From Labilithrix luteola (GTDB taxonomy: Bacteria > Myxococcota_A > Polyangia > Polyangiales > Polyangiaceae): a stretch of 15,105 nt of DNA. The notes beneath the pieces are model-generated. The model did not search any database. It was not told the DNA's origin and was given only the letters and a program-made list of their open reading frames with translations. The stretch covers positions 1-15,105 of the forward strand of contig JAMFST010001430.1 of the NCBI GenBank assembly GCA_026225435.1, in the 5' to 3' direction. Positions 819 through 13,621 of this stretch are shown here, piece by piece. The position numbers and the translations under genes were made by a program. How positions within the stretch are numbered: the first letter of the stretch is position 1; every line of letters begins with the position of its first letter.

Positions 819-1415
819 ATGGGGCGCAGCAGGGGAACGTCATGGCGAGGGCGCACGCTCGCGCTCGCCGTCTCGCTGGCGGTGACGGCGGCGTCGCTCC
901 CGCGCGTCGCCCGCGCCGACGACGCGATGGACCCCGGCGAGCTCGGCGCGGTCACCAGCATCGGCACCTTGCTGGTCACCTCGCTGGTCGGCGGGCTGAT
1001 GATGGGGCGCGCGACGAACACCTTCACGCGCAACGCCGGCACGGACGTCGCCGGCTTCGGCTTCGCCGCCGCGCCGCTCGCCGGTCACCTGGTCAACGGC
1101 GAGTACGCCCGCGCCGCCGCCTTCGGCGCGACGCCGCTGGTGATGGCCGTGGGCGACGTCGCGCTGATGCAGCACGAGCCCAACGTCATCGACGAGGAAG
1201 GGACCTCGGCCACCCGCGTCCCCTTCGCCATCTTCTTCACCGTCGGCCTCGCCTCCGGCGTGGTCGGCATCGTCGACACGATGTTCGCCACCTACCGCCG
1301 CGACAAGCGGCGTGAGCACGACGGTGGCCAGGAGCACGCCGTCTTCTCCGATCTCCACGTCGTGCCGCTGGTCGGCCGCGACGGTGGCTCGCTCTCCGTG
1401 GGAGGTACATTTTGA
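819..1415 (+). CDS. Exported hypothetical protein, first gene of the DUF4266/DUF3570 cluster
   Basis: I do not recognise this 198-residue protein. It opens with a basic stretch (RSRGTSWRGR) and a hydrophobic core ending in ARA before DD, a plausible Sec signal peptide cleaved near residue 33. The mature part is rich in Gly, Ala and Thr and has four moderately hydrophobic segments; the clearest is near residues 129-150 (PFAIFFTVGLASGVVGIVDT). A basic/acidic linker (RRDKRREHD) follows. The end, VVPLVGRDGGSLSVGGTF, alternates like beta strands and finishes in Phe, as many outer-membrane proteins do, although the protein is small for a barrel. Its TGA lies inside the TTGA overlap with the next gene, so the two are translationally coupled and it probably shares the envelope role of that cluster. 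An inner-membrane protein with a C-terminal tail is the alternative. Confidence 0.8.
   Translation: MGRSRGTSWRGRTLALAVSLAVTAASLPRVARADDAMDPGELGAVTSIGTLLVTSLVGGLMMGRATNTFTRNAGTDVAGFGFAAAPLAGHLVNGEYARAAAFGATPLVMAVGDVALMQHEPNVIDEEGTSATRVPFAIFFTVGLASGVVGIVDTMFATYRRDKRREHDGGQEHAVFSDLHVVPLVGRDGGSLSVGGTF
1401..1405 (+). promoter_or_regulatory. Shine-Dalgarno sequence supporting a TTG start
   Basis: GGAGG lies 6 nt before the TTG at 1412. It is a near-perfect ribosome binding site and decides the start of the small lipoprotein gene, which has no ATG before its signal peptide. Confidence 0.75.
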
Positions 1416-1630
1416 AACCGTCGCCGCGCCTCGTGCTTGCCGCCTTCGTCCTCTTCAGCGCCGGTTGCGCCACCGTGCCGCACTCGCGCCGCGCACGGCT
1501 GGCCGATCCGATGATGTCGCTCTCCGAGGATCCGCTCGAGACGTACAGCAAACAAAAATTGTACACCAGCCGCGAAGGGGCGGCTGGCGGCGACGGCGCA
1601 GCCGCCGGTGGTGGATGCGGCTGCCAGTGA
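1412..1630 (+). CDS. DUF4266-type small lipoprotein with C-terminal GGGCGCQ
   Basis: This 72-residue lipoprotein matches my memory of the DUF4266 family: about 70 residues, a lipobox, an RxxLAxPxM block, a K.Y.S+E block and a Gly-rich tail ending GGGCGC plus Asn or Gln. Here the lipobox is FSAGC with lipidated Cys19, the block RARLADPMM covers residues 27-35, KLYTSRE covers 49-55, and the tail carries Cys69 and Cys71. The start is TTG, chosen for the GGAGG 6 nt upstream and because it gives a complete signal peptide; it overlaps the previous stop by 4 nt. The function of the family is unknown to me. The CxC tail next to an exported thioredoxin suggests redox chemistry, metal binding or a modification site, which is inference. 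The codons around 1548-1560 are unusually A-rich for this genome. Confidence 0.85.
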   Translation: MKPSPRLVLAAFVLFSAGCATVPHSRRARLADPMMSLSEDPLETYSKQKLYTSREGAAGGDGAAAGGGCGCQ

Positions 1631-2898
1631 ACGGACGGGACGGACGGTCGCGCCCGGGCCGACTCGTCGTCGTCGCGACCGTGCTCGCGCTCCTTCTCTG
1701 CGGGCGCGCGCGCCTGGCCTCCGCCGACGCACCGCCGGGCTTCACGCCGATGCCCACGGTGTCGCTGCCAGACCTGGCCGATCCGGTCATCTTCGGCGAC
1801 CCCGACGACACCGCGCTGCGCCTGCAGTCGTTCAACACGCGGCTCGCCTATTACGTGCAGCACGGCGCCGGCTACCAGTCGCAGGCGGCGGTGCGGGTCG
1901 CCGCGCCTGGCTCCGAGCGCGCCATCATCACCGAGCCGATGCTCGAGGCGATCATCACGCAAGGGCCGCGGGTCACCCATCGCTTCTTCGTGCCCGCGGA
2001 CGTGGTCACCGCCGCCTCGCCCGACGCCGACGACAAGTACCGCCCCGACGTGATGAGCACGGCGTCGCGCCTGAACAAGGCCATTGCCCTCGACTGGGAC
2101 GTCGCCTACCGCGCGCCGTCGGGCAACACCTGGTCGGTGCGCAACGTGTTCCACATCGAGTCGATGTACCGCTCGTGGACCGCGGGCGCCGGCTGGGCGC
2201 GCGACTTCGAGCAAGGGGCCACCACGGTCGCCGGCAACCTGCAGCAGGTCTCCGACTGGTTCGACGTCTACACCATCCAGGGGCGCCGCGAGGGGCACGA
2301 CACGCGCAGCTCGTCGAACGCCAACGTGTCGATCACCCGCGTGCTCACGCCGACCACCGTGGCCCACGTGAACTACGGCGTGACCTTGCAGGAGGGCGAG
2401 CTGTCCAACACCTGGAACAGCGTGCCGATGGTCAACGGCTTCCGCGGCCAGGAGTTCCTCCCCAGCGAGCGCCAGCGCCACGCCTTCGTGCTGCGCGGCG
2501 CCCAGTGGCTCCCCTGGAACGGCGCCTTCAAGCTCTTCTACCGTCTGTACATCGACGACTGGGGGATGGCGGCCTCCACCCTCGAGACCTCGCTTTCCCA
2601 GCGCATCACCCCGTGGCTGTACCTGCGCGCGAACTACCGCTGGCACGTGCAGTCGGGCGTCTCGTTCTTCACCACCTCGGCGCCGCTGGTGCTCGGGTAC
2701 CGCACCGCCGACAGCGATCTCGCGCCGCTGACCTCGCAGGACGTGGGCGGCAAGGTGGTGATCGATCTGCCCCTGCCGCGCAGCTGGGAGAGCTTCGCGC
2801 GAGAGCTGCACCTCGATGCCGGCTACGATCGCTACTTCCGCACCAACGACCTCACGGTGGACCTGTTCGCATGTGGCGCCGGCTTTCGCTTCAACTGA
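1615..2898 (+). CDS. DUF3570-type outer-membrane protein
   Basis: A 427-residue protein that I assign to the DUF3570 family from its size, its beta-strand-like sequence and its place directly after a DUF4266 lipoprotein. The N-terminus is basic, followed by a hydrophobic core and ASA at residues 35-37 before DAPPG, a signal peptide cleavage site. The mature chain is rich in alternating aromatic/polar strands, for example AYRAPSGNTWSVRNVFHIES and FKLFYRLYIDDWG, and ends GAGFRFN, consistent with an outer-membrane barrel of roughly 16-20 strands. I chose ATG 1615; GTG 1627, which forms a GTGA overlap with the preceding stop, is an equally good start and keeps the signal peptide. The 3' end overlaps the thioredoxin gene by 28 bp. 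The molecular role is not known; transport or surface redox assembly are guesses. Confidence 0.85.
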   Translation: MRLPVNGRDGRSRPGRLVVVATVLALLLCGRARLASADAPPGFTPMPTVSLPDLADPVIFGDPDDTALRLQSFNTRLAYYVQHGAGYQSQAAVRVAAPGSERAIITEPMLEAIITQGPRVTHRFFVPADVVTAASPDADDKYRPDVMSTASRLNKAIALDWDVAYRAPSGNTWSVRNVFHIESMYRSWTAGAGWARDFEQGATTVAGNLQQVSDWFDVYTIQGRREGHDTRSSSNANVSITRVLTPTTVAHVNYGVTLQEGELSNTWNSVPMVNGFRGQEFLPSERQRHAFVLRGAQWLPWNGAFKLFYRLYIDDWGMAASTLETSLSQRITPWLYLRANYRWHVQSGVSFFTTSAPLVLGYRTADSDLAPLTSQDVGGKVVIDLPLPRSWESFARELHLDAGYDRYFRTNDLTVDLFACGAGFRFN

Positions 2899-3401
2899 TC
2901 GCAGCTCCGCTGGTGGTGGGGGCGCTGGCCGCGCTCGCGTCGTGCGCGCGCCCGTCTTCCGCCGTGGTGCCAGCGCCGTCCCCGCTGCCGCCGCTCTCGC
3001 TCGGCGACGGTGACGGCGTCGCCGCCCTGCGCGAGCAGACGCGCGGCAAGGTGACGCTGGTGACCTTCTGGGCCACCTGGTGCGACGCCTGCGAAGCCGA
3101 GCTCCCTTCGCTCCGTCGTCTCGCCATCCGCGCGCCCGAGTACGGCGGCGAGGTGGTCGGCGTCGACGTGGGCGAGGACGCCGCCGACGTGGTCGCCTTC
3201 ACCGCGCGCCACCGGATCGCCTACCGCCAGCTGCTCGACGACGACTTCCACCTGCTCGACGCGCTCGGCGGCGAGCGCCGCATCCCGCGCACCCTGGTGC
3301 TCGATGCGAACGGGCAGATCGTCTATCAGGGGGCCAGCTTCGACCCGCGCGCGCTCGCCGCCTTCCGCGCCGCCCTTGGCGGAGACGCCCGATCGCCGTG
3401 A
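2871..3401 (+). CDS. TlpA-like thioredoxin-fold lipoprotein
   Basis: A 176-residue periplasm-facing thiol-disulfide protein of the TlpA/ResA type. The N-terminus has basic residues, a hydrophobic core and a lipobox LASC, giving a lipidated Cys25. A Pro-rich linker (about 29-42) leads into the thioredoxin domain, with WATWCDACEAE containing the redox pair Cys71/Cys74 and the conserved cis-proline at Pro139 (RIPRTLVLD). Family members reduce or isomerise disulfides in exported proteins, often for cytochrome maturation or metal-site assembly. No cytochrome gene is nearby. The partner is more likely the CxC tail of the DUF4266 lipoprotein or another product of this cluster, which is inference. 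The ATG lies within the DUF3570 coding end (28 bp overlap), and the stop overlaps the next GTG start, showing tight coupling. Confidence 0.92.
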   Translation: MWRRLSLQLIAAPLVVGALAALASCARPSSAVVPAPSPLPPLSLGDGDGVAALREQTRGKVTLVTFWATWCDACEAELPSLRRLAIRAPEYGGEVVGVDVGEDAADVVAFTARHRIAYRQLLDDDFHLLDALGGERRIPRTLVLDANGQIVYQGASFDPRALAAFRAALGGDARSP

Positions 3402-4717
3402 ACGAGCTGCGCGCGGAGGAGACGTTTCATCCGCGCGCTCTCCGGCTCTGGCTGGCGGTGGTGCTCACGGGGGTCGGCGCGGGGCTGTCGGCCATCGCCC
3501 TCACCCGGCTGCTCCTCGCGGTGCAGCACCTCGTCTGGCCTGGCCCGGCGGACGCCTCGCTCCTCGACGTCGCCAGCTCGGCGAGCCCGCTCCGTCACCT
3601 GCTCGTCCTCGTCGGCGCCGGTCTCCTCACGGGCTGCGGGCAGCTGCTCCTGGTGCGATTGCCGAGCGGCAACAGCATCGACCTCACCGAGGCGATCGCC
3701 TTCGACGCTGGCCGGCTGCCCAAGCTGCGCACCCTCGGGAGCGCTGTGCTGTCGGTCATCGTGGTCGGGATGGGCGCCTCGCTCGGCCGCGAAGGGGCGC
3801 CGAAGCAAGCCGCCGCGGTCATGGCCAACGCCATCTCCGACCGCGCCGGCCTCTCGGACGACCAGCGTCGCTTGCTCGTCGCCTCCGCGGCTGGCGCCGG
3901 CATGGCCGCGGCGTACGGCGTCCCCCTCGGTGGTGCGCTCTTCGCCATCGAGGTGCTCCGCGGCGCGCTCGCCCTGCGCATGGTGCTGCCCGCGCTGGTG
4001 ACCTCGCTGGTGGCCTGTGCCGTCTCCTGGATAGGCCTGCCCGACGCGCCAACCTACGTCATCCCGGCCTACGGATCGTCCGCATCGGTCCTCGCCTGGG
4101 CGCTCGTCGCGGGGCCGATCGCCGGCCTCGTCTCCATCGGCTTCATCCGCCTCATCGCCTTCGCCGATCGGAGCAAGCCGAAGGGGGCGCTGCGCATCGT
4201 CACGCCGGCGCTCACCCTCGGGCTCCTCGGCGCGGTGTCGATCGCCTTTCCCCAGCTCCTCGGCAACGGGAAGGACGTCGCGCAGCTGGCCTTCGTCGGT
4301 GGCGTCGCGCCGCTCCTTCTGCTGGTGCTCCTCGTCCTCAAGCCGGCCGCCACCGCCGCCTGCCTCGGGAGCGGCACGCCGGGCGGTCTGTTCACTCCGT
4401 CGCTGGCGCTCGGTGCGCTGCTCGGCGGCCTCCTCGGCCAGGCGTGGTCACTCTGCTGGCCAGGCGTGCCGCCGGGGCTCTTCGCCGTCTGCGGCGCCGG
4501 CGCGGTGCTCGCCGCGACCACCCAGGGGCCCATCTCGGCGACCGTCCTGGTGATCGAGCTCACCGGCCACGATCGCTCCTTCATCCTCCCGCTGCTGGTG
4601 ACGATCACCACCGCCACCTTCGTCGCCCGCTCCCTCGAGCTGCGCTCGATCTACGAGGCGCGGCTCACGCCGGAGCAGGTGCAGAAGCGCCGCCTGGGCA
4701 CCGCCGCACCGGTCTGA
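3398..4717 (+). CDS. ClC-family chloride channel/transporter
   Basis: A 439-residue integral membrane protein of the ClC family, which moves chloride or related anions through the inner membrane, with or without proton exchange. The GTG start forms a GTGA overlap with the thioredoxin stop. Landmarks: GMGASLGREGAPKQ, with the gating glutamate Glu132 in GREGA in place of the usual GREGP; YGVPLGGALFAIEV (173-186); GSGTPGGLFTPSLALG, corresponding to the GxFxP anion-site loop; and TQGPISATVLVIELTG near the C-terminus. No CBS domains follow. Two features are atypical: the usual GSGIP loop is replaced by PSGNSIDLTEA (89-99), and the position of the internal proton glutamate of E. coli ClC (second E of IIEE) appears to be Val186. 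This suggests a divergent branch that may not be proton coupled. Its link to the upstream redox genes may be only operonic. Confidence 0.93.
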   Translation: MNELRAEETFHPRALRLWLAVVLTGVGAGLSAIALTRLLLAVQHLVWPGPADASLLDVASSASPLRHLLVLVGAGLLTGCGQLLLVRLPSGNSIDLTEAIAFDAGRLPKLRTLGSAVLSVIVVGMGASLGREGAPKQAAAVMANAISDRAGLSDDQRRLLVASAAGAGMAAAYGVPLGGALFAIEVLRGALALRMVLPALVTSLVACAVSWIGLPDAPTYVIPAYGSSASVLAWALVAGPIAGLVSIGFIRLIAFADRSKPKGALRIVTPALTLGLLGAVSIAFPQLLGNGKDVAQLAFVGGVAPLLLLVLLVLKPAATAACLGSGTPGGLFTPSLALGALLGGLLGQAWSLCWPGVPPGLFAVCGAGAVLAATTQGPISATVLVIELTGHDRSFILPLLVTITTATFVARSLELRSIYEARLTPEQVQKRRLGTAAPV

Positions 4718-6751: not shown

Positions 6752-6772
6752 GTGACGGTCACTGACGGTCAC
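6752..6772 (+). promoter_or_regulatory. Paired GGTCAC repeat with embedded palindrome upstream of the Cys-rich gene
   Basis: TGACGGTCAC occurs twice in direct tandem (6753-6762 and 6763-6772). The first copy also forms the 11-base palindrome GTGACGGTCAC with the preceding G. The second copy ends 29 nt before the ATG at 6802. Paired GTCAC units also lie before phoB and pstS. I read this as a probable operator for the sigma/Cys-rich operon; the binding protein is not known. Confidence 0.5.
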
Positions 6773-6801
6773 ACTTGCGCGCCTCGCGGCTAGTACCCGC
6801 C

Positions 6802-7002
6802 ATGAACCTCCTCCTCCGCCTCAAGTCGCGCCATCCGCGGCTCTTTCCCCTGGTCGCCGCCCTCACCGTCCTCGGCGCGACCGGCGGCTACAGCGCTTAC
6901 GCTCGTGCCGCTGCCGACGATTGCTGCTACCCGGGAGCCCCCTGCTGCCACCCCGGGGCGCCGTGCTGCGCGCGTCACCACCACGCCAGTCCCCACCCCT
7001 GA
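6802..7002 (+). CDS. Small exported Cys-rich protein with a (CCxPGAP) repeat
   Basis: I do not recognise this 66-residue protein. A basic N-terminus (LRLKSRHPR) is followed by a hydrophobic segment (about 14-30), and ARAAA then DD gives a plausible signal cleavage near residue 38; otherwise the segment acts as an anchor. The mature part is only about 28 residues and is dominated by CCYPGAPCCHPGAPCC (41-56): three Cys-Cys pairs at exact 7-residue spacing, followed by ARHHH and a further His near the end. Six cysteines and five or six histidines in so short a peptide suggest metal binding (for example Cu, Zn or Ni) or disulfide sensing, which is inference. The ATG was preferred to the TTG at 6775, which sits directly after the repeat operator. 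The sigma factor gene follows closely, and the membrane protein two genes on shares the CCxPG motif. Confidence 0.75.
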   Translation: MNLLLRLKSRHPRLFPLVAALTVLGATGGYSAYARAAADDCCYPGAPCCHPGAPCCARHHHASPHP

Positions 7003-7058
7003 CATCTCCGGTCGCGCGCCCGTTGCCTCCCCTCCGCGAAGCCGAGCTTGGTCCCCTG

Positions 7059-7556
7059 ATGAGCCGCCTGGCCCACGGCGATCGCACGGCCTTCGACCCG
7101 CTCTACCTGGCGCTGCGCCCACGTGCGGTGTGGCTCGCGCGGCGTCGCATCGGCGAGGCGGAGGCGGCGGACGTGGCCCAGACCGCGCTCCTCAAGGTGT
7201 TCTCCCGCGCGAGCGAGTTCACCCCCGGCCGGGCGTGTCTGCCGTGGTTCTACGCCATCGTCGCCAACGAGATCCGGACGAGCCGACGCCGCAACGCCCG
7301 CCTCTCGCCCGCCGACCCGGCCCTCGAGCACGCCGCCAGCGACAGCGCCGACGCCGACGAGCAGCTCCTCGGCCACGAGCTCGAGAACGCGCTCGAGCAA
7401 GCCATTCATGAGCTCGACCGCGAGGCGGCCCAGACCATCGCCGCGCTGCTCGGGCGTGCGCCGCTCCCCGACCTCCCCTCACCGACCTTTCGCAAGCGCG
7501 TCTCCCGCGCGTACGCCAAGCTCCGCCTGCTCCTGGGACCGAACCATGTCGACTGA
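7059..7556 (+). CDS. ECF-like RNA polymerase sigma factor with a shortened region 4
   Basis: A 165-residue sigma-70 family protein that should redirect RNA polymerase to a small set of promoters. Region 2 is clear: HGDRTAFDPLYLALRPRAVWLARRRIG, then EAADVAQTALLKVFSRASEF and the -10 recognition helix area PWFYAIVANEIRTSRRR. An acidic/Ala linker (83-107) precedes a reduced region 4: ELDREAAQTIAALLGR, then APLPDLPSPTFRKRV and SRAYAKLRLLL. The usual stretch between the R-x-V-L helix and the EIA helix is missing, and the turn is Pro-rich. The ATG at 7059 keeps the core of region 2; a TTG at 7023 would restore the first helix (LREAELGPL) and may be the true start, but neither has a good ribosome site. 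The stop overlaps the membrane protein gene by 11 nt, the usual arrangement for a sigma/anti-sigma pair. Confidence 0.85.
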   Translation: MSRLAHGDRTAFDPLYLALRPRAVWLARRRIGEAEAADVAQTALLKVFSRASEFTPGRACLPWFYAIVANEIRTSRRRNARLSPADPALEHAASDSADADEQLLGHELENALEQAIHELDREAAQTIAALLGRAPLPDLPSPTFRKRVSRAYAKLRLLLGPNHVD

Positions 7557-8115
7557 CCTCACCCGCGCTCGCCGCGCCTTCGAGCTGGGTCGCCTGCGGT
7601 CGGCGGCCGCGCGCGCACTGCTCGTCGTCGCCCTCGTCGCGCTGATCGGCCGCTTCACCTCGGGGAGCTCGTCCCTCGCGCTCTTGCCGCTGACCTTCGC
7701 CCTCTGGGTCTTCGTCCACTGGCGCGGGCAAGCGCTGCTCGCCGGAGCGATGTACGGCCTGTCCGGCGGAGTCGTCACCACCCTCTTGCCGCTCTCCTTG
7801 CTCCGCCCCTGCTGCGCGCCCGGGATGGACATGAGCGCCATGAGCGAGATGGGCGCCGCCTGCTGCACCATGCCCGGCGCCTGCGTCGGTGCGGGCGCGG
7901 TCGTCGGCATGCTCGTCGCCGCGGTCATCCCCTTCGGCCGCTCGTCGTGGTGGAAGACGGCGCTCGGGATCGCGCTCGGGATGGCCTCGGTGGTGGTGCT
8001 GAAGTGCGCGACACTGGCGCTAGGCGAGATGGTGGGACTCGTCGGCGGGCTGCTCGCCGGCATCGTCGCGAGCACCGGCGCACGTCTGCTTTTGAGAGCG
8101 CGAGCGACGCGTTGA
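7546..8115 (+). CDS. Six-helix membrane protein with a Cys/Met-rich periplasmic loop; candidate anti-sigma factor
   Basis: I do not recognise a named family. The 189 residues form about six membrane segments (near 21-36, 43-58, 62-86, 114-130, 137-158 and 160-183). Positive charges fall at the N-terminus, after segments 2 and 4 and at the C-terminus, which places the loop between helices 3 and 4 in the periplasm. That loop (about 88-113) is packed with metal-type ligands: Cys89-Cys90, Met94, 96, 99 and 102, Cys106-Cys107, Met109 and Cys113. It contains CCAPG and CCTMPG, echoing the CCYPG and CCHPG of the small exported protein. Gene overlap with the sigma factor and six helices recall NrsF-type (DUF1109) anti-sigma factors that sense metals through cysteines; I infer an analogous role without claiming homology. 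A metal transporter is the main alternative. Confidence 0.8.
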   Translation: MSTDLTRARRAFELGRLRSAAARALLVVALVALIGRFTSGSSSLALLPLTFALWVFVHWRGQALLAGAMYGLSGGVVTTLLPLSLLRPCCAPGMDMSAMSEMGAACCTMPGACVGAGAVVGMLVAAVIPFGRSSWWKTALGIALGMASVVVLKCATLALGEMVGLVGGLLAGIVASTGARLLLRARATR

Positions 8116-8194: not shown

Positions 8195-8887
8195 ATGGCC
8201 CGAATCCTCATCGTCGAAGACGAGCCCGATCTCGCGCAGGTGCTCGAGTACAACCTGAAGGACGCCGGTCACAAGGTCCACGTGGCCGGGCGCGGCGCCG
8301 AGGGATTGCGCCTCGCGCGCGAGAAGCGCCCCGACCTGGTGCTGCTCGATCTCATGCTCCCGGACATCGCCGGCACGGAGGTCTGCAAGCAGCTGAAGGC
8401 GGACCCGACCCTGCGCGGAATCCAGGTGGTGATGCTCACCGCCAAGGGGGAGGAGATCGACCGCGTCCTCGGCTTCGAGCTCGGCGCCGACGACTACGTG
8501 GTGAAGCCCTTCAGCGTGCGCGAGCTGCTCCTGCGCATCCAGGCGATCCTGCGGCGCAGCGCCGGCGGCATCGAGACGGAGGCGACCACGGTGTTCGGTC
8601 GCCTGAAGATCGATCGCAACGCGCACCGCGTGTGGGTCGACGAGACGGAGCTCGAGCTGACCGCGCTGGAGTTCAAGCTGCTGGTCACCCTGCACGAGCG
8701 GAAGAACCGGGTGCAGACGCGCAACGCGCTCCTCAACGATGTCTGGGGGATCGAGGCGGACATCACCACCCGCACCGTCGACACCCACGTGAAGCGCCTG
8801 CGCGAGAAGCTCGGCGCCGCCGGCGCCTACGTCGAGACGGTCCGAGGAGTGGGATATCGCTTCGCCGACGTCCCGCCGGAAGCGTAA
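8195..8887 (+). CDS. phoB: Phosphate regulon response regulator PhoB
   Basis: A 230-residue OmpR/PhoB-type response regulator. The receiver domain (1-120) has the acidic pocket Glu8/Asp9/Glu10, the phosphorylated Asp52 in LLDLMLPD, Thr82 in MLTAKGEE and Lys104 in VVKPFSVREL. The winged-helix DNA-binding domain (about 131-225) has LTALEFKLLVTL, the recognition helix TRTVDTHVKRLREKL and the wing VETVRGVGYRF. When phosphorylated under phosphate limitation such proteins activate pst and other phosphate genes. Position directly before pstSCAB-phoU supports PhoB over other OmpR-family members. The partner histidine kinase PhoR, commonly adjacent, is not in this window. The gene stands 79 bp from the preceding membrane protein and probably has its own promoter. 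Confidence 0.93.
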   Translation: MARILIVEDEPDLAQVLEYNLKDAGHKVHVAGRGAEGLRLAREKRPDLVLLDLMLPDIAGTEVCKQLKADPTLRGIQVVMLTAKGEEIDRVLGFELGADDYVVKPFSVRELLLRIQAILRRSAGGIETEATTVFGRLKIDRNAHRVWVDETELELTALEFKLLVTLHERKNRVQTRNALLNDVWGIEADITTRTVDTHVKRLREKLGAAGAYVETVRGVGYRFADVPPEA

Positions 8888-8890
8888 AGC

Positions 8891-8971
8891 CGACCTGTAC
8901 GGTCGAGGTGACTGCCTGGGGCTGAGATAGCGGAAAAACCGCACTCTGACGCCAAACCCTCGGACCGAGGT
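8891..8971 (+). other. Three small hairpins in the phoB-pstS gap
   Basis: The 111-bp gap contains CGACC/GGTCG (8891-8905, loop TGTAC), GCGG/CCGC (8930-8942, loop of five A) and CCTCG/CGAGG (8958-8970, loop of three). None is followed by a T run, so none is a standard intrinsic terminator. They could be attenuator-like leader structures, or chance in GC-rich DNA. Confidence 0.3.
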
Positions 8972-8988
8972 CACCGATTGTCACATTA
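8970..8988 (+). promoter_or_regulatory. GTCAC direct repeat upstream of pstS
   Basis: GTCAC at 8970-8974 and 8980-8984, 10 bp apart, with the second extending to GTCACATTA, the same nine bases as before phoB (8160-8168). It abuts the ribosome site and lies only 14 nt before the GTG, too close for an ordinary activator site, so it may be a repressor site, an RNA feature or coincidence. Confidence 0.35.
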
Positions 8989-8993
8989 AGGAG
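8988..8993 (+). promoter_or_regulatory. Ribosome binding site of pstS
   Basis: AAGGAG, 5 nt before GTG 8999 and 14 nt before ATG 9008. The spacing favours the GTG start. Confidence 0.7.
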
Positions 8994-8998
8994 ACAAG

Positions 8999-10129
8999 GT
9001 GCGCCCCATGATCTCGCTCCTTCGTGTCTCTTCAGTCGTGCTCGGCTGCGCCATCGGCTCGGCGATGCTCTCGCTCGCTGGCTGCTCCAAGAAGGACGAC
9101 TCGTCCTCCACGACCACGACCGGAACCACGACGAGCGGCGGCACGGTGAGCCTCAACGGCGCCGGCGCCACCTTCCCCAACCCGCTCTACACGAAGTGGA
9201 TCAGCGACTACTCCGCGCTTCCGGCGGGTCACGGCGTGAAGGTCAACTACCAGTCGGTCGGCTCGGGCGGCGGGATCAAGGCGATCAGCGATCAGACGGT
9301 CGACTTCGGCGCCACCGACGCTCCCCTGACCGACGAGGAAGCGGGCAAGGCGCCCGGCAAGCTGCTGCACATCCCGACCACCCTCGGCGCGGTCGTCCTC
9401 ACCTACAACCTCGACGGGATCAAGACGGGCCTCAAGCTCTCTCCCGAGGTCCTCGCCGGCATCTTCCTCGGCGACATCAAGAGCTGGGACGACCCCAAGA
9501 TCAAGGCGGACAACGCCGCGCTCCCGCTCCCCAAGAAGAGCATCAGCATCGTCCACCGCACCGACGGCAGCGGCACCACCGAGGTCTTCACCCAGTATCT
9601 CGCGCAGGTGAGCCCCGACTGGAAGACCAAGGTCGGCGCGGGCAAGAGCGTGAAGTGGCCCACCGGCAACGGCGCCAAGGGGAACGAGGGCGTCACCGGA
9701 AACGTCACCAACACCCCCGGCTCCATCGGTTACGTCGAGCTGGCGTACGCCGCGCAGAACAACCTCGCCGTCGCCTACCTCAAGAACCACGCCGGCAAGT
9801 TCGTCTCCCCGACCCTCGACGCGATCAGCGCCGCCGCCGCCGCCATGGGCGACAAGGTGCCGGACGATCTGCGCATGTCGATCCTCGACCCGGACGGCGA
9901 CGCGTCCTACCCGATCAGCTCGTTCACCTACGTCCTTCTGTACGCAGAGCAGAAGGACGCGGCCAAGGGCGGAGCGCTGGTGAGCTTCCTCTGGTGGGGG
10001 ATCCACGACGGCCAGAAGGCCGCGCCCGGCCTGCACTACGCCCCGCTCCCCGCGGCCATCGTCACCCGTGACGAGGCGAAGCTGAAGTCGATCACCTCGG
10101 GTGGCAAGGCGGTCCTGGCCGCTCCGTGA
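8999..10129 (+). CDS. pstS: Phosphate ABC transporter substrate-binding lipoprotein PstS
   Basis: A 376-residue periplasmic phosphate-binding lipoprotein, the capture subunit of the high-affinity Pst system. The signal peptide ends in the lipobox LAGC (lipidated Cys29), followed by a Ser/Thr-rich linker (35-49). The binding protein fold shows NGAGATFPNPLYTKW (53-67, with Thr58), SVGSGGGIKAI (87-96), DFGATDAPLTD (102-112, with Asp107), HRTDGSGTTEVFTQYL (186-201; Arg187, Ser191, Gly192 and Thr193 are expected phosphate ligands) and a GNEGVTG loop with SIGYVELAYA. Length and motifs are those of a complete PstS. GTG was taken as the start because AAGGAG lies 5 nt upstream; ATG 9008 is the alternative. 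The TGA overlaps the pstC GTG by 4 nt, starting the pstSCAB-phoU operon. Confidence 0.96.
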   Translation: MRPMISLLRVSSVVLGCAIGSAMLSLAGCSKKDDSSSTTTTGTTTSGGTVSLNGAGATFPNPLYTKWISDYSALPAGHGVKVNYQSVGSGGGIKAISDQTVDFGATDAPLTDEEAGKAPGKLLHIPTTLGAVVLTYNLDGIKTGLKLSPEVLAGIFLGDIKSWDDPKIKADNAALPLPKKSISIVHRTDGSGTTEVFTQYLAQVSPDWKTKVGAGKSVKWPTGNGAKGNEGVTGNVTNTPGSIGYVELAYAAQNNLAVAYLKNHAGKFVSPTLDAISAAAAAMGDKVPDDLRMSILDPDGDASYPISSFTYVLLYAEQKDAAKGGALVSFLWWGIHDGQKAAPGLHYAPLPAAIVTRDEAKLKSITSGGKAVLAAP

Positions 10130-11160
10130 AAGACGCTGCAGCTTCCGAGCTACCCACCGACAAGGAGCTGGTCCCCGCGAGCACCAAGGTTGCGCGCGCC
10201 ACGCGGAAGACCAACCGGGACGTCAACGCGGGAGATCGCATCTTCCGCGGCGTCACCACGTTCTTCGCCGGGCTGGTGGTGGTCACGCTCGCCGCGGTGG
10301 CCATCCAGCTGGTGATGACCGCGTGGCCGAGCCTCTCCAAGTTCGGCTTCCACTTCCTCTACACGCGGGACTGGAACCCGGTGGAGGACGAGTTCGGAGC
10401 GCTGCCCTTCCTCTACGGCACGGTCGTCTCCTCGACGCTGGCGCTGTGCATCGCCGTCCCCATCGCGCTCGGCATCGCCATCTTCCTCACCGAGCTGGCG
10501 CCGCCGTGGATGCGCAGCCCGGTCTCCTTCCTGGTCGAGCTCCTCGCCGCGGTCCCCAGCGTCGTCTACGGCCTCTGGGGGATCTTCGTCCTCGCGCCGT
10601 GGCTGCGTGACACCGTCGAGCCGGGCATCTCCAAGGTGCTCGGCTTCATCCCCATGTTCCGCGTCCCCGAGTCCGGCTCCACCGGTCTCGGCATGTTCAC
10701 CGCCGGGTTGATCCTGAGCATCATGATCCTCCCGACGATCTCCTCGATCGCTCGCGAGGTGCTCAAGGCGACGCCGCTGCCCCTGCGTGAAGGGGCCCTC
10801 GCCCTCGGCTCGACCCGCTGGGAGGTCGTCCGCTACGTCATCCTGCCCTACGCCCGCTCCGGCATCGTCGGCGCCATCATCCTCGGCCTCGGCCGCGCGC
10901 TCGGCGAGACGATGGCCGTCACCATGGTCATCGGCAACAGCCCGAACATCTCCGCCTCGCTCTTCGCGCCGAGCTACACGATGGCCAGCATCATCGCCAA
11001 CGAGTTCACCGAGGCGACCGGCAAGATCCACCTCGCCGCGCTCGCCGAGATCGGCCTGCTCCTCTTCGTGGTGACGTTCATCCTCAACGTCCTCGCGCGT
11101 CTGCTCGTCTGGCGCGTCGCCGCCGGTCGCCGTTACAAGACAGCCGGGGGGCGAACCTGA
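10126..11160 (+). CDS. pstC: Phosphate ABC transporter permease PstC
   Basis: A 344-residue inner-membrane permease that pairs with PstA to form the phosphate channel. After an unusually long polar N-terminus (about 42 residues) come six membrane segments, the first near 44-65. The region about 90-150 (GALPFLYGTVVSS, then LVELLAAVPSVVYGLWGIF) is typical of PstC. The cytoplasmic EAA loop that docks on PstB is REGALALGSTRWEVVRYVIL (221-240), followed by LGRALGETMAV (255-265). The GTG start gives a GTGA overlap with pstS, and the TGA overlaps the pstA ATG by 1 nt (TGATG). Distinguished from PstA by position, length and the FGALPFLYGT block. Confidence 0.95.
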   Translation: MKDAAASELPTDKELVPASTKVARATRKTNRDVNAGDRIFRGVTTFFAGLVVVTLAAVAIQLVMTAWPSLSKFGFHFLYTRDWNPVEDEFGALPFLYGTVVSSTLALCIAVPIALGIAIFLTELAPPWMRSPVSFLVELLAAVPSVVYGLWGIFVLAPWLRDTVEPGISKVLGFIPMFRVPESGSTGLGMFTAGLILSIMILPTISSIAREVLKATPLPLREGALALGSTRWEVVRYVILPYARSGIVGAIILGLGRALGETMAVTMVIGNSPNISASLFAPSYTMASIIANEFTEATGKIHLAALAEIGLLLFVVTFILNVLARLLVWRVAAGRRYKTAGGRT

Positions 11161-12002
11161 TGGCCAGCTACACCCAGCGAAAGCTCGTCGACCGCATCGT
11201 CACCGGCCTGTGCATCTGCGCCGCCCTGCTGGCGATCATCCCGCTCGGCAGCGTACTTTTCTACGTCACCAAGCAGGGCATCGGGGCGGTCAACTGGGAC
11301 TTCTTCACCAAGCTCCCCAAGCCGGTCGGTGAGACCGGCGGTGGCATGGCCCACGCCATCGTCGGGACGCTGACCATCCTCGGCATCGCCTGCCTCATCG
11401 GCGTCCCCACCGGCATCCTCGGCGGGATCTACCTGGCCGAGTTCGGCGGTACCCGCTTCAGCAAGATCGTCCGCTTCAGCGCCGACGTCCTCACCGGCGT
11501 CCCCTCGATCGTCATCGGCATCTTCGTCTACGTGATCATCGTCGTGCCGACCAAGCAGTTCAGCGCGATGGCCGGAGGCGTGGCGCTGGCGATCCTCATG
11601 TTGCCGACGGTCGTGCGCACCACCGACGAGCTGCTCCGCCTGGTCCCCGACGCGCTCCGTGAAGGCGCGCTCGCCCTCGGCGTCCCCAAGTGGCGCGCCA
11701 CCGTCAGCATCGTGCTGCGCACCGCGGCGCCGGGAATCGCCACCGGCGTGATGCTCGCCGTCGCCCGCGTGGCTGGCGAGACCGCGCCGCTCCTCTTCAC
11801 CGCCTTCGGCAACCTGGGCTGGAGCGACGGGATCGGCTCGCCGACCGCGTCATTGCCGGTCCAGATCTTCAATTATTCGGTCTCGCCTTACGCGGACTGG
11901 CACCGGCAGGCCTGGGCAGCCGCCCTCGTGCTCGTCGCACTGGTACTGTTCTTCAACCTGCTCGCTCGGTTGCTCGTCCGCGACCGGTCCCCGGCGCGCT
12001 GA
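11160..12002 (+). CDS. pstA: Phosphate ABC transporter permease PstA
   Basis: A 280-residue inner-membrane permease, partner of PstC. Six hydrophobic segments are visible, the first near 12-36 and the last at 253-275. The family blocks GGMAHAIVGTLTILG (61-75), GVPTGILGGIYLAEFGG (81-97) and LTGVPSIVIGIFVY (111-124) are present. The EAA loop is REGALALGVPKWRATVSIVLR (about 167-187), with GVMLAVARVAGETAPLLFTA after it. The gene starts in the pstC stop codon and ends 15 bp before the pstB ATG. Length and motif order are normal, and nothing suggests degradation. Confidence 0.95.
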   Translation: MASYTQRKLVDRIVTGLCICAALLAIIPLGSVLFYVTKQGIGAVNWDFFTKLPKPVGETGGGMAHAIVGTLTILGIACLIGVPTGILGGIYLAEFGGTRFSKIVRFSADVLTGVPSIVIGIFVYVIIVVPTKQFSAMAGGVALAILMLPTVVRTTDELLRLVPDALREGALALGVPKWRATVSIVLRTAAPGIATGVMLAVARVAGETAPLLFTAFGNLGWSDGIGSPTASLPVQIFNYSVSPYADWHRQAWAAALVLVALVLFFNLLARLLVRDRSPAR

Positions 12003-12017
12003 CCGGCGAAAGTCCCC

Positions 12018-12857
12018 ATGACCGACAACCTGGCAAATCCCCGAATCACGGCGCGCACCATGAACGAAGACAGTGATCGCGTGAGCGGTCCGCCGGAGAT
12101 CCTCAAGGCGAAGATCCGCGCCGACGACGTGCACGCCTTCTACGGCGCCAAGGAAGCCATCAAGGGCATCACCCTGGACGTCGCCGAGAAGGAGGTCACC
12201 GCCTTCATCGGTCCGTCCGGCTGCGGCAAGAGCACCTTCCTCCGCTGCTTCAACCGCATGCACGAGATCATCCCCGGCGCCCGCGTGGCCGGCCGCGTGC
12301 TCCTCGACGGCAGCGACATCTACGACGCCGAGATCGACCCGGTGCGCGTGCGTCGCCGGGTCGGCATGGTGTTCCAGAAGCCGAACCCGTTCCCCACCAT
12401 GAGCATCCGCGAGAACGTCCTCGCCGGCCTGAAGCTCAATGGCCTGAAGATCAACGACGCCGATCGGCTGGTGGAGGAGTCGCTGCAGCAGGCCGCGCTG
12501 TGGGACGAGGTGAAGGACTCGCTCCACCTGTCTGGCACCAGCCTCTCGGGCGGCCAGCAGCAGCGTCTGTGCATCGCCCGCTCGCTCGCTCTCGAGCCCG
12601 AGGTGCTCCTGATGGACGAGCCGTGCTCCGCGCTCGACCCCATCGCCACCGCCCGCGTCGAGGAGCTGATTCACGAGCTCGGCGGCAAGTACACCATCGT
12701 CATCGTCACCCACAGCATGCAGCAGGCGGCGCGCGTCTCCGACCGCACGGCGTTCTTCTATCTAGGTGAGCTCATCGAGTACGACGCCACCGACACCATC
12801 TTCACCAAGCCCAGCGATCCTCGAACCGAGGATTACATCACCGGTCGCTTCGGCTGA
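12018..12857 (+). CDS. pstB: Phosphate ABC transporter ATP-binding protein PstB
   Basis: A 279-residue ATPase that powers phosphate import through PstC/PstA. Walker A is GPSGCGKST (65-73), the Q-loop glutamine is Gln120 in [14 protein letters not shown], the ABC signature is LSGGQQQR (176-183), Walker B is VLLMDEP with Asp200/Glu201, and the switch histidine is His232 in [13 protein letters not shown]. The FQKPNPFP block and the end [17 protein letters not shown] are characteristic of PstB. The N-terminus is about 14-30 residues longer than usual; the ATG at 12060 gives a 265-residue version closer to the family and may be the real start, since neither site has a strong ribosome sequence. Confidence 0.96.
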
Positions 12858-12864
12858 TCGACTC

Positions 12865-12869
12865 GAGGA
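12865..12869 (+). promoter_or_regulatory. Ribosome binding site of phoU
   Basis: GAGGA lies 8 nt before the ATG at 12878, in the 20-bp gap after pstB, and supports that start. Confidence 0.5.
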
Positions 12870-12877
12870 CGAACGCC

Positions 12878-13621
12878 ATGCCGCGCCACACCGACCTCGA
12901 ATACGAAGAAGAGCTCCGCCAGATCCGCGAGCACCTGCTCCTCATGGGGGCCAAGGTGGAGGAGATGATCGCCGCCAGCATGCGCGCGCTCCTCGAACGG
13001 GATAGCGATCTCGCCGCCAAGACCATGCGTCTCGACACGCAGATCAACCGCATCGAGATGGAGACCGACGAGATGTGCGTTCGCGTCTTCGCTCGCCGCC
13101 AGCCGGTCGCCCGCGACCTGCGCTTCCTCACCATGGTGCTCAAGGTCGTCACCGATCTGGAGCGCATGGGGGACATGGCGGTGAACATCTGCGAGCGCGT
13201 GATCGAGCTGAACGAGGAGACGCCGCTCAAGTCGTACGTCGATCTCCCGGCGATGGCCGAGGCGGCGCAGGGCATGCTGCGTGAAGCGCTCGACGCCTTC
13301 GTCGAGGCCGACGCCGAGCGCGCCCAGGCGGTCATCGACAAGGACTACGTGGTCGACGCGTTCTACTCGCAGGTGTTCCGCGAGCTGCTCACGTACATGA
13401 TGGAGAACCCGCGCAACATCTACCGGGCGACCCGCGTGCAGTCGATCGCCAAGTACCTCGAACGGATCGGCGACCACGCCACCAACGTGGCCGAGATGGT
13501 CATCTTCCTCGTGCGCGGCAAGGACATCCGCCACTCGGGGAAGATGTCGACCATCAAGCCGCCGAGCGGCGCCGATCTCGGAAGCGTCGATTCGCTCGAC
13601 GACCTGTCCAAGGCAAAATGA
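12878..13621 (+). CDS. phoU: Phosphate signalling protein PhoU
   Basis: A 247-residue cytoplasmic protein that links the Pst transporter to the PhoR/PhoB pathway and restrains signalling and uptake when phosphate is plentiful. It has the two three-helix repeats of the family, each with the metal-binding ExxxD...N motif: DLERMGDMAVNI (Glu95, Asp99, Asn103) and YLERIGDHATNV (Glu195, Asp199, Asn203). The opening LEYEEELRQIREHLLLMGAKVEEM is the usual first helix. A 30-residue polar tail (about 218-247, with MSTIKPPSGADL) extends beyond the second repeat. It is the last gene of the pst operon, 20 bp after pstB. Confidence 0.96.
   Translation: MPRHTDLEYEEELRQIREHLLLMGAKVEEMIAASMRALLERDSDLAAKTMRLDTQINRIEMETDEMCVRVFARRQPVARDLRFLTMVLKVVTDLERMGDMAVNICERVIELNEETPLKSYVDLPAMAEAAQGMLREALDAFVEADAERAQAVIDKDYVVDAFYSQVFRELLTYMMENPRNIYRATRVQSIAKYLERIGDHATNVAEMVIFLVRGKDIRHSGKMSTIKPPSGADLGSVDSLDDLSKAK

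Follow-up and report, generated by a model that had tools for sequence, protein, structure and literature searches.

Three closely packed genes were found on the forward strand of the window, i.e., the whole analyzed stretch of 15,105 nucleotides of Labilithrix luteola DNA, which derives from a genome assembly 80% complete. The first gene (6802..7002) encodes a Cys-rich peptide of 66 aa with a hydrophobic N-terminus. The second gene, starting at 7023 (TTG, 177 aa) or 7059 (ATG, 165 aa) and ending at 7556, encodes an ECF sigma factor with a short divergent region 4, and the third (7546..8115) encodes a six-helix membrane protein of 189 aa, a putative Cys sensor and anti-sigma factor. This same-strand arrangement, together with the 11-nt overlap of the sigma and membrane genes, had been described in the original prediction and was confirmed. 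Among the three genes, only the sigma factor had a Pfam or NCBIfam match above a curated cut-off. Homologues that carry names are Labilithrix, Polyangiaceae, Myxococcales, and Deltaproteobacteria MAG entries. Phosphate uptake genes with no evident metal link are located directly downstream of the module (8195–13621): a phoB-like response regulator, pstS-like and phoU genes (Pfam), interspersed with ORFs that by eye are permease-like or ATPases. On the other side (1412–4714), Pfam identified a small DUF4266 protein ending in GCGCQ, a DUF3570 protein, a thioredoxin-fold protein, and then a ClC chloride channel.

Homologue searches and inspection of fetched neighbourhoods revealed all three genes together at 16 complete loci, namely the window (G000:C784), L012–L023, L025, L030, and L032. 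The sigma factor was matched by pattern in 15 of these modules and was read directly in the 16th, L030 (as L060). One MAG supplied both L021 and L023, L020 and G055:C4 are one locus, and G055:C18, a close relative of L023, was given no separate count. L031 was left out since a contig edge cuts just inside its peptide; the sigma/membrane pair of G024:C536 (L010/L087), which has no peptide, also stands outside the 16. A start codon giving the 11-nt overlap was available in 12 of the 15 modules measured, with 4 nt in two others and 14 or 17 nt in one. Among 377 Myxococcota genomes, the membrane protein had a strong match (E below 1e-40) in 9 genomes (10 loci) and a weaker match in 12. Clear matches to the peptide profile (E 3e-7 or better) were detected in 11 of the same 377 genomes, including all 9 with a strong membrane match and counting G265, where a contig edge cuts the peptide; weak matches were present in 8 further genomes. 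In the remaining two clear-peptide genomes, G010 and G349, the peptide adjoins a related but divergent membrane protein. Considering 149 membrane-protein matches, 615 peptide-profile matches, and 16 loci with all three genes, the module is real and conserved beyond chance; the conserved gene order bears out the earlier suggestion that the three genes form a unit. We found no description of such Cys-peptide/sigma/six-helix triads in the literature searched.

The three Cys pairs of the window's peptide lie in CCYPGAPCCHPGAPCC. In the alignment of 16 peptides, the six Cys (CC-x5-CC-x5-CC) as well as P51 and G52, the PG of the second repeat, were invariant, and the codons of the invariant Pro and Gly varied synonymously among the module peptides. 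The peptide profile matched its 615 proteins at E 1e-3. The peptide is probably exported, as judged from its hydrophobic N-terminus rather than by a signal-peptide predictor, and its comparison with metallothioneins covered the Cys pattern. According to the available part of a report on bufferins (PMC12452194), these are MNIO-modified periplasmic peptides, Cys-rich and tied to copper. The module peptide shares with them the richness in Cys, and in G055 an MNIO operon follows a copy of the module's promoter sequence. However, none of the 13 window proteins scanned, including the closest ones scanned on either side, was an MNIO (PF05114), and the peptide had no Pfam match to DUF2282; no bufferin signature was seen in these scans, and the thiols of the module peptide are presumed to be unmodified.

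The sigma factor was recognized by its sigma-70 region 2 (PF04542, E 4.6e-9; TIGR02937, 45.8 bits over a cut-off of 42.9), and region 4 had no Pfam match. The TTG at 7023 is the likelier start because a conserved EAEL segment lies upstream of the ATG at 7059. A profile built from 19 sigma homologues matched SigH, CnrH, and RpoE chains and aligned to ECF sigma factors of the PDB over positions 10–166, with the RKRxSRAY end included. In the AlphaFold2 model (19 rows, pLDDT 88.8), the last helices spanned residues 99–130, 133–142, and 153–176. The 177-aa protein contains a single Cys and does not extend beyond region 4.

The membrane protein yielded 149 matches at E 1e-3 (query counted in), of which 120 were listed and aligned for the conservation counts. 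Six Cys were near-invariant among these listed matches: C106 and C113 in 120/120 and C89, C90, C107, and C154 in 119/120. The first five sit in LRPCC...CCTMPGxC, and C154 marks the end of helix 5. An N-terminal segment, RRAYELGRL, was conserved as well. AlphaFold2 (54-row alignment, mean pLDDT 83.8) modelled six long helices (residues 3–39, 41–60, 62–80, 110–127, 135–154, and 159–188), in agreement with the predicted six-helix protein, and placed the conserved loop Cys on the same side. Judging from helix order, Arg-rich ends, and an N-terminus taken to be inside, all six Cys probably face outward, into the periplasm. The expected CCxPG motifs of the loop held in part: the CC pair of the first was conserved (119/120) and its "APG" was not, while CCTMPG was retained (P110 in 119/120 and G111 in 93/120 of the matches listed). 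Of the loop Met residues pointed out earlier, M109 was conserved (115/120) and the others were not.

The original prediction had also linked the membrane protein to the NrsF/DUF1109 family. As described in the available part of the source (PMC3511200), SigF-NrsF of Caulobacter crescentus consists of an ECF sigma factor followed by a six-helix repressor of its regulon, which has two conserved, probably periplasmic Cys and takes part in a heavy-metal response; sigma and NrsF genes also occur in Buf1 bufferin clusters, according to the part of PMC12452194 available. The module resembles this system in layout, six helices, and conserved Cys, which in the module are predicted to be periplasmic. It differs in having six conserved Cys instead of two, a Cys-rich peptide at the head of the operon, and a promoter of the GGTCAC-N17-CTAG type instead of the GTAACC-N16-CGAA of SigF. 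No match of the membrane protein to PF06532 (NrsF/DUF1109) was obtained in Pfam at E 1, and a search of the window's own genome with PF06532 led to two other loci, the module locus not being among them. Profile–profile comparison of the membrane family with NrsF by hhalign gave a probability of 1.2 (E 0.045), or 1.15 (E 0.02) in another comparison, vs. 7.1 (E 0.005) for reversed NrsF. The corresponding values were 11.6 (E 0.0026) vs. 5.4 (E 0.0071) for a divergent clade of the family alone and 1.0 vs. 20.4 for both clades together. Thus, neither Pfam nor profile–profile comparison gave a match above the controls, and a link to NrsF was not supported by the sequence profile, though the six helices agree.

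Two systems of Myxococcus xanthus were also compared. CarQ-CarR is a translationally coupled pair of an ECF sigma factor and a six-helix anti-sigma factor, CarR being classed as DUF1109, and carQRS is activated by copper in the dark (PMC8156234, available part). Gene layout and myxobacterial host are alike, whereas the signal of CarQ-CarR is light or singlet oxygen, that part of the text mentions no Cys peptide, and the module's membrane protein has no DUF1109 match. CorE, likewise an ECF sigma factor of a myxobacterium, is controlled by copper and senses it via its own C-terminal Cys-rich extension (PMC8999054, available part). A sigma factor of the CorE type was rejected, as the window's protein has a single Cys and no such extension.

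A putative autoregulated ECF promoter was located upstream of the peptide gene (6767..6793, forward strand), with the −35 element GGTCAC at 6767–6772, a 17-nt spacer, and the −10 element CTAG at 6790–6793, ending 8 nt before the peptide ATG. A sequence of this type precedes the peptide gene in 16/16 modules and is exact in 12: GGTCAC was exact in 14/16, CTAG in 15/16, and the spacer was 17 nt in 15/16, with L014, L021, and L032 one base off and L025 having a spacer of 16. The exact pattern occurred 33 times in the 10 module genomes, 8 times at modules and 25 times elsewhere, and was not over-represented there (33 matches vs. 161 for the backward control). A copper-type gene lay within about 1.5 kb (a locus of roughly 3 kb) of 8/25 non-module exact sites in the 10 module genomes vs. 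0/26 in 12 genomes without a CC-type module (p = 0.0017), where the query proteins were drawn from the same loci as tested, the 8 sites correspond to about 6 independent ones (G055 C96 and C134 being near-duplicates), and four of the 12 control genomes (G001, G006, G011, and G037) contain a divergent relative. With the first gene only, judged by eye, the counts were 5/25 vs. 0/26 (p = 0.023). The genes near exact sites included a multicopper oxidase (G055 C96, G055 C134, and G201 C89), the MNIO operon (G055 C96 and C134), HMA (G273 C7), a heavy-metal-binding lipoprotein with OEP (G024 C536), and a cupredoxin (G201 C95). Most of these target types were named independently by Pfam, which found multicopper oxidase, plastocyanin, HMA, HMBD, Cupredoxin_1, MNIO, OEP, and P-type ATPase in the copper clusters. 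The reciprocal test came out weak, with a site, even a degenerate one, in only 5/23 multicopper-oxidase loci fetched from the 10 module genomes, and it slightly lowered our confidence in the copper reading. In the window's own genome (80% complete), the sole exact match was the promoter of the module itself, six other degenerate sites had no copper gene among the ORFs read, and the single multicopper oxidase begins right at the edge of its contig. The phoB-pst genes beside the module and the absence of a copper gene behind the promoter in this genome are the main weakness of the copper reading. At L083 (2941–3480) and L084 (1098–1630), a Cys-rich lipoprotein-like ORF (GSCSAAMAQSGNCGANMG) stands behind the same promoter sequence and ahead of an MNIO gene (identified by Pfam for L083); our guess is that this operon is of the bufferin type.

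Copper genes also adjoin members of the family itself. The peptide-less pair of G024:C536 (L087) is a paralogous sigma/membrane pair inside a copper cluster, with the loop Cys only partly present. Its neighbours to one side are a CopA-type ATPase, HMA, HMBD lipoprotein, OEP, and multicopper oxidase; to the other side lies a second P-type ATPase. Downstream of the L122 module (G369:C14) come genes for a multicopper oxidase and a plastocyanin-like protein. Among the listed genes downstream of modules, only that of L032 was a multicopper oxidase.

By hhalign (99.5, E 5.5e-23; 12 proteins, among them L010), the weak membrane matches proved to be relatives with a different Cys layout, C..C..CVPAC and GC. 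A search with an alignment of 11 divergent proteins detected the superfamily in 39 of 377 Myxococcota genomes and 33 genera; 30 loci were fetched of 41 matches, 15 of them seen before. An ECF sigma gene lay upstream of the membrane gene at all 30 loci, and a small Cys-rich ORF with a hydrophobic N-terminus preceded the sigma gene at 23 (19 with 6 or more Cys), including 10 of the 15 newly found loci. Such an ORF was detected at 1/28 NrsF-type sigma loci and at 3–11% of random positions, which were drawn from loci that include triads. The superfamily peptides ranged from CCCDNCDNCGCGC and CPCGTSCPCGSGCPCGH to 99-aa CxC repeats, and in G010 and G349, a CC-x5-CC-x5-CC peptide was paired with a divergent CVPIC-type loop. 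The divergent triad L243 has ArsR-family, SBF-permease (Acr3-like), and LMWPc (ArsC-like) genes as neighbours, the L245 triad has RND, CusB-like, and multicopper-oxidase genes within about 4 kb, and at L253, an OEP gene comes after a sigma/membrane pair in which no peptide was detected. Most of the 14 divergent neighbourhoods fetched contained no evident metal gene (home-made gene lists, by eye).

The module is probably, by a modest margin of confidence, a sensor of the cell envelope that regulates itself and responds to copper or a similar soft metal, with the peptide as a periplasmic metal sink. The six-helix protein would hold the sigma factor at the membrane via its cytosolic N-terminal segment with RRAYELGRL, while the six conserved Cys of LRPCC...CCTMPGxC and the end of helix 5 would watch the periplasm. 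Binding of metal to these thiols may change the helix bundle and free the sigma factor, which would then fire GGTCAC-N17-CTAG promoters, namely that of its own operon and, in several genomes, also those of genes for copper oxidases, efflux, and chaperones and of an operon of the bufferin type. The module operon would yield as its first product the CC-x5-CC-x5-CC peptide, which may lower free metal in the periplasm and so close a negative feedback loop. The original prediction, in which peptide and loop may bind a common ligand, had left that ligand between a soft metal and a thiol oxidant and the peptide between buffering and presentation; it is partly supported overall, and in other genomes the neighbours of this promoter sequence favour a soft metal, most of all copper.

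Vicinal Cys pairs are redox-capable, and the loop and peptide pairs could make and break disulfides in a sensor of thiol redox or disulfide stress, to which copper genes would respond as copper oxidizes. In line with this, two of the 25 non-module sites (L052 and L061) precede ORFs with a thioredoxin-like CxxC (by eye). However, the genes near promoter sites are metal-binding or metal-exporting (in a search that covered copper-type genes only), and several divergent peptides carry metallothionein-like CxC repeats, so that we hold a redox sensor to be quite improbable. The module might instead serve a metal or metalloid of the soft kind other than copper (As, Hg, Cd, Ag, or Au), with copper genes as secondary targets in some genomes, which we hold to be unlikely. 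In its favour, As and Hg are well bound by vicinal thiols, and arsenic-type genes adjoin L243. Against it, the metal genes identified for the CC-x5-CC-x5-CC clade are of copper type, the systematic search having covered copper-type genes.

The peptide could also take part in sensing itself, the metal-loaded form docking on the Cys loop and triggering sigma release, i.e., presentation and not buffering. Presence of the peptide in 9/9 genomes with a strong CC-loop membrane match and the change of Cys pattern in both peptide and loop across the superfamily (by eye) would fit such an obligatory co-sensor. The peptide-less pair at L087, 7 of 30 superfamily loci without a peptide by the filter used, and the mixed pairing of G010 and G349 speak against it and make it highly doubtful. 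The L087 pair suggests that the peptide is an output, a sink, instead of an obligatory part of the sensor. A broader proposition is that these Myxococcota triads carry matched metal-thiolate codes in peptide and loop, the peptide being the encoded ligand of its own sensor, so that swapping both would retune metal specificity. We consider it rather improbable, our estimate being lowered by G010 and G349, whose pairing runs counter to strict matching.

The module adds a family of putative membrane partners of ECF sigma factors, for which no Pfam or NCBIfam model matches the window's protein, and links it with small Cys-rich peptides of one class that are probably exported. The defined promoter makes the metal read by each triad directly testable, and the divergent triads, which range from CC pairs to CxC repeats like those of metallothioneins, would form a natural set in which to read metal specificity off the sequence.

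Two similar short proteins with YFGCC(A/E)MC were noticed at L246 (7245–7487), without a Pfam match, and at L152 (1256–1510); one is beside a divergent sigma/membrane pair and one about 18 kb from the L087 copper cluster on the same contig. At the NrsF-type sigma locus L158 (G182:C11), a small upstream ORF consists of NPCAA repeats, possibly a parallel Cys-peptide arrangement.
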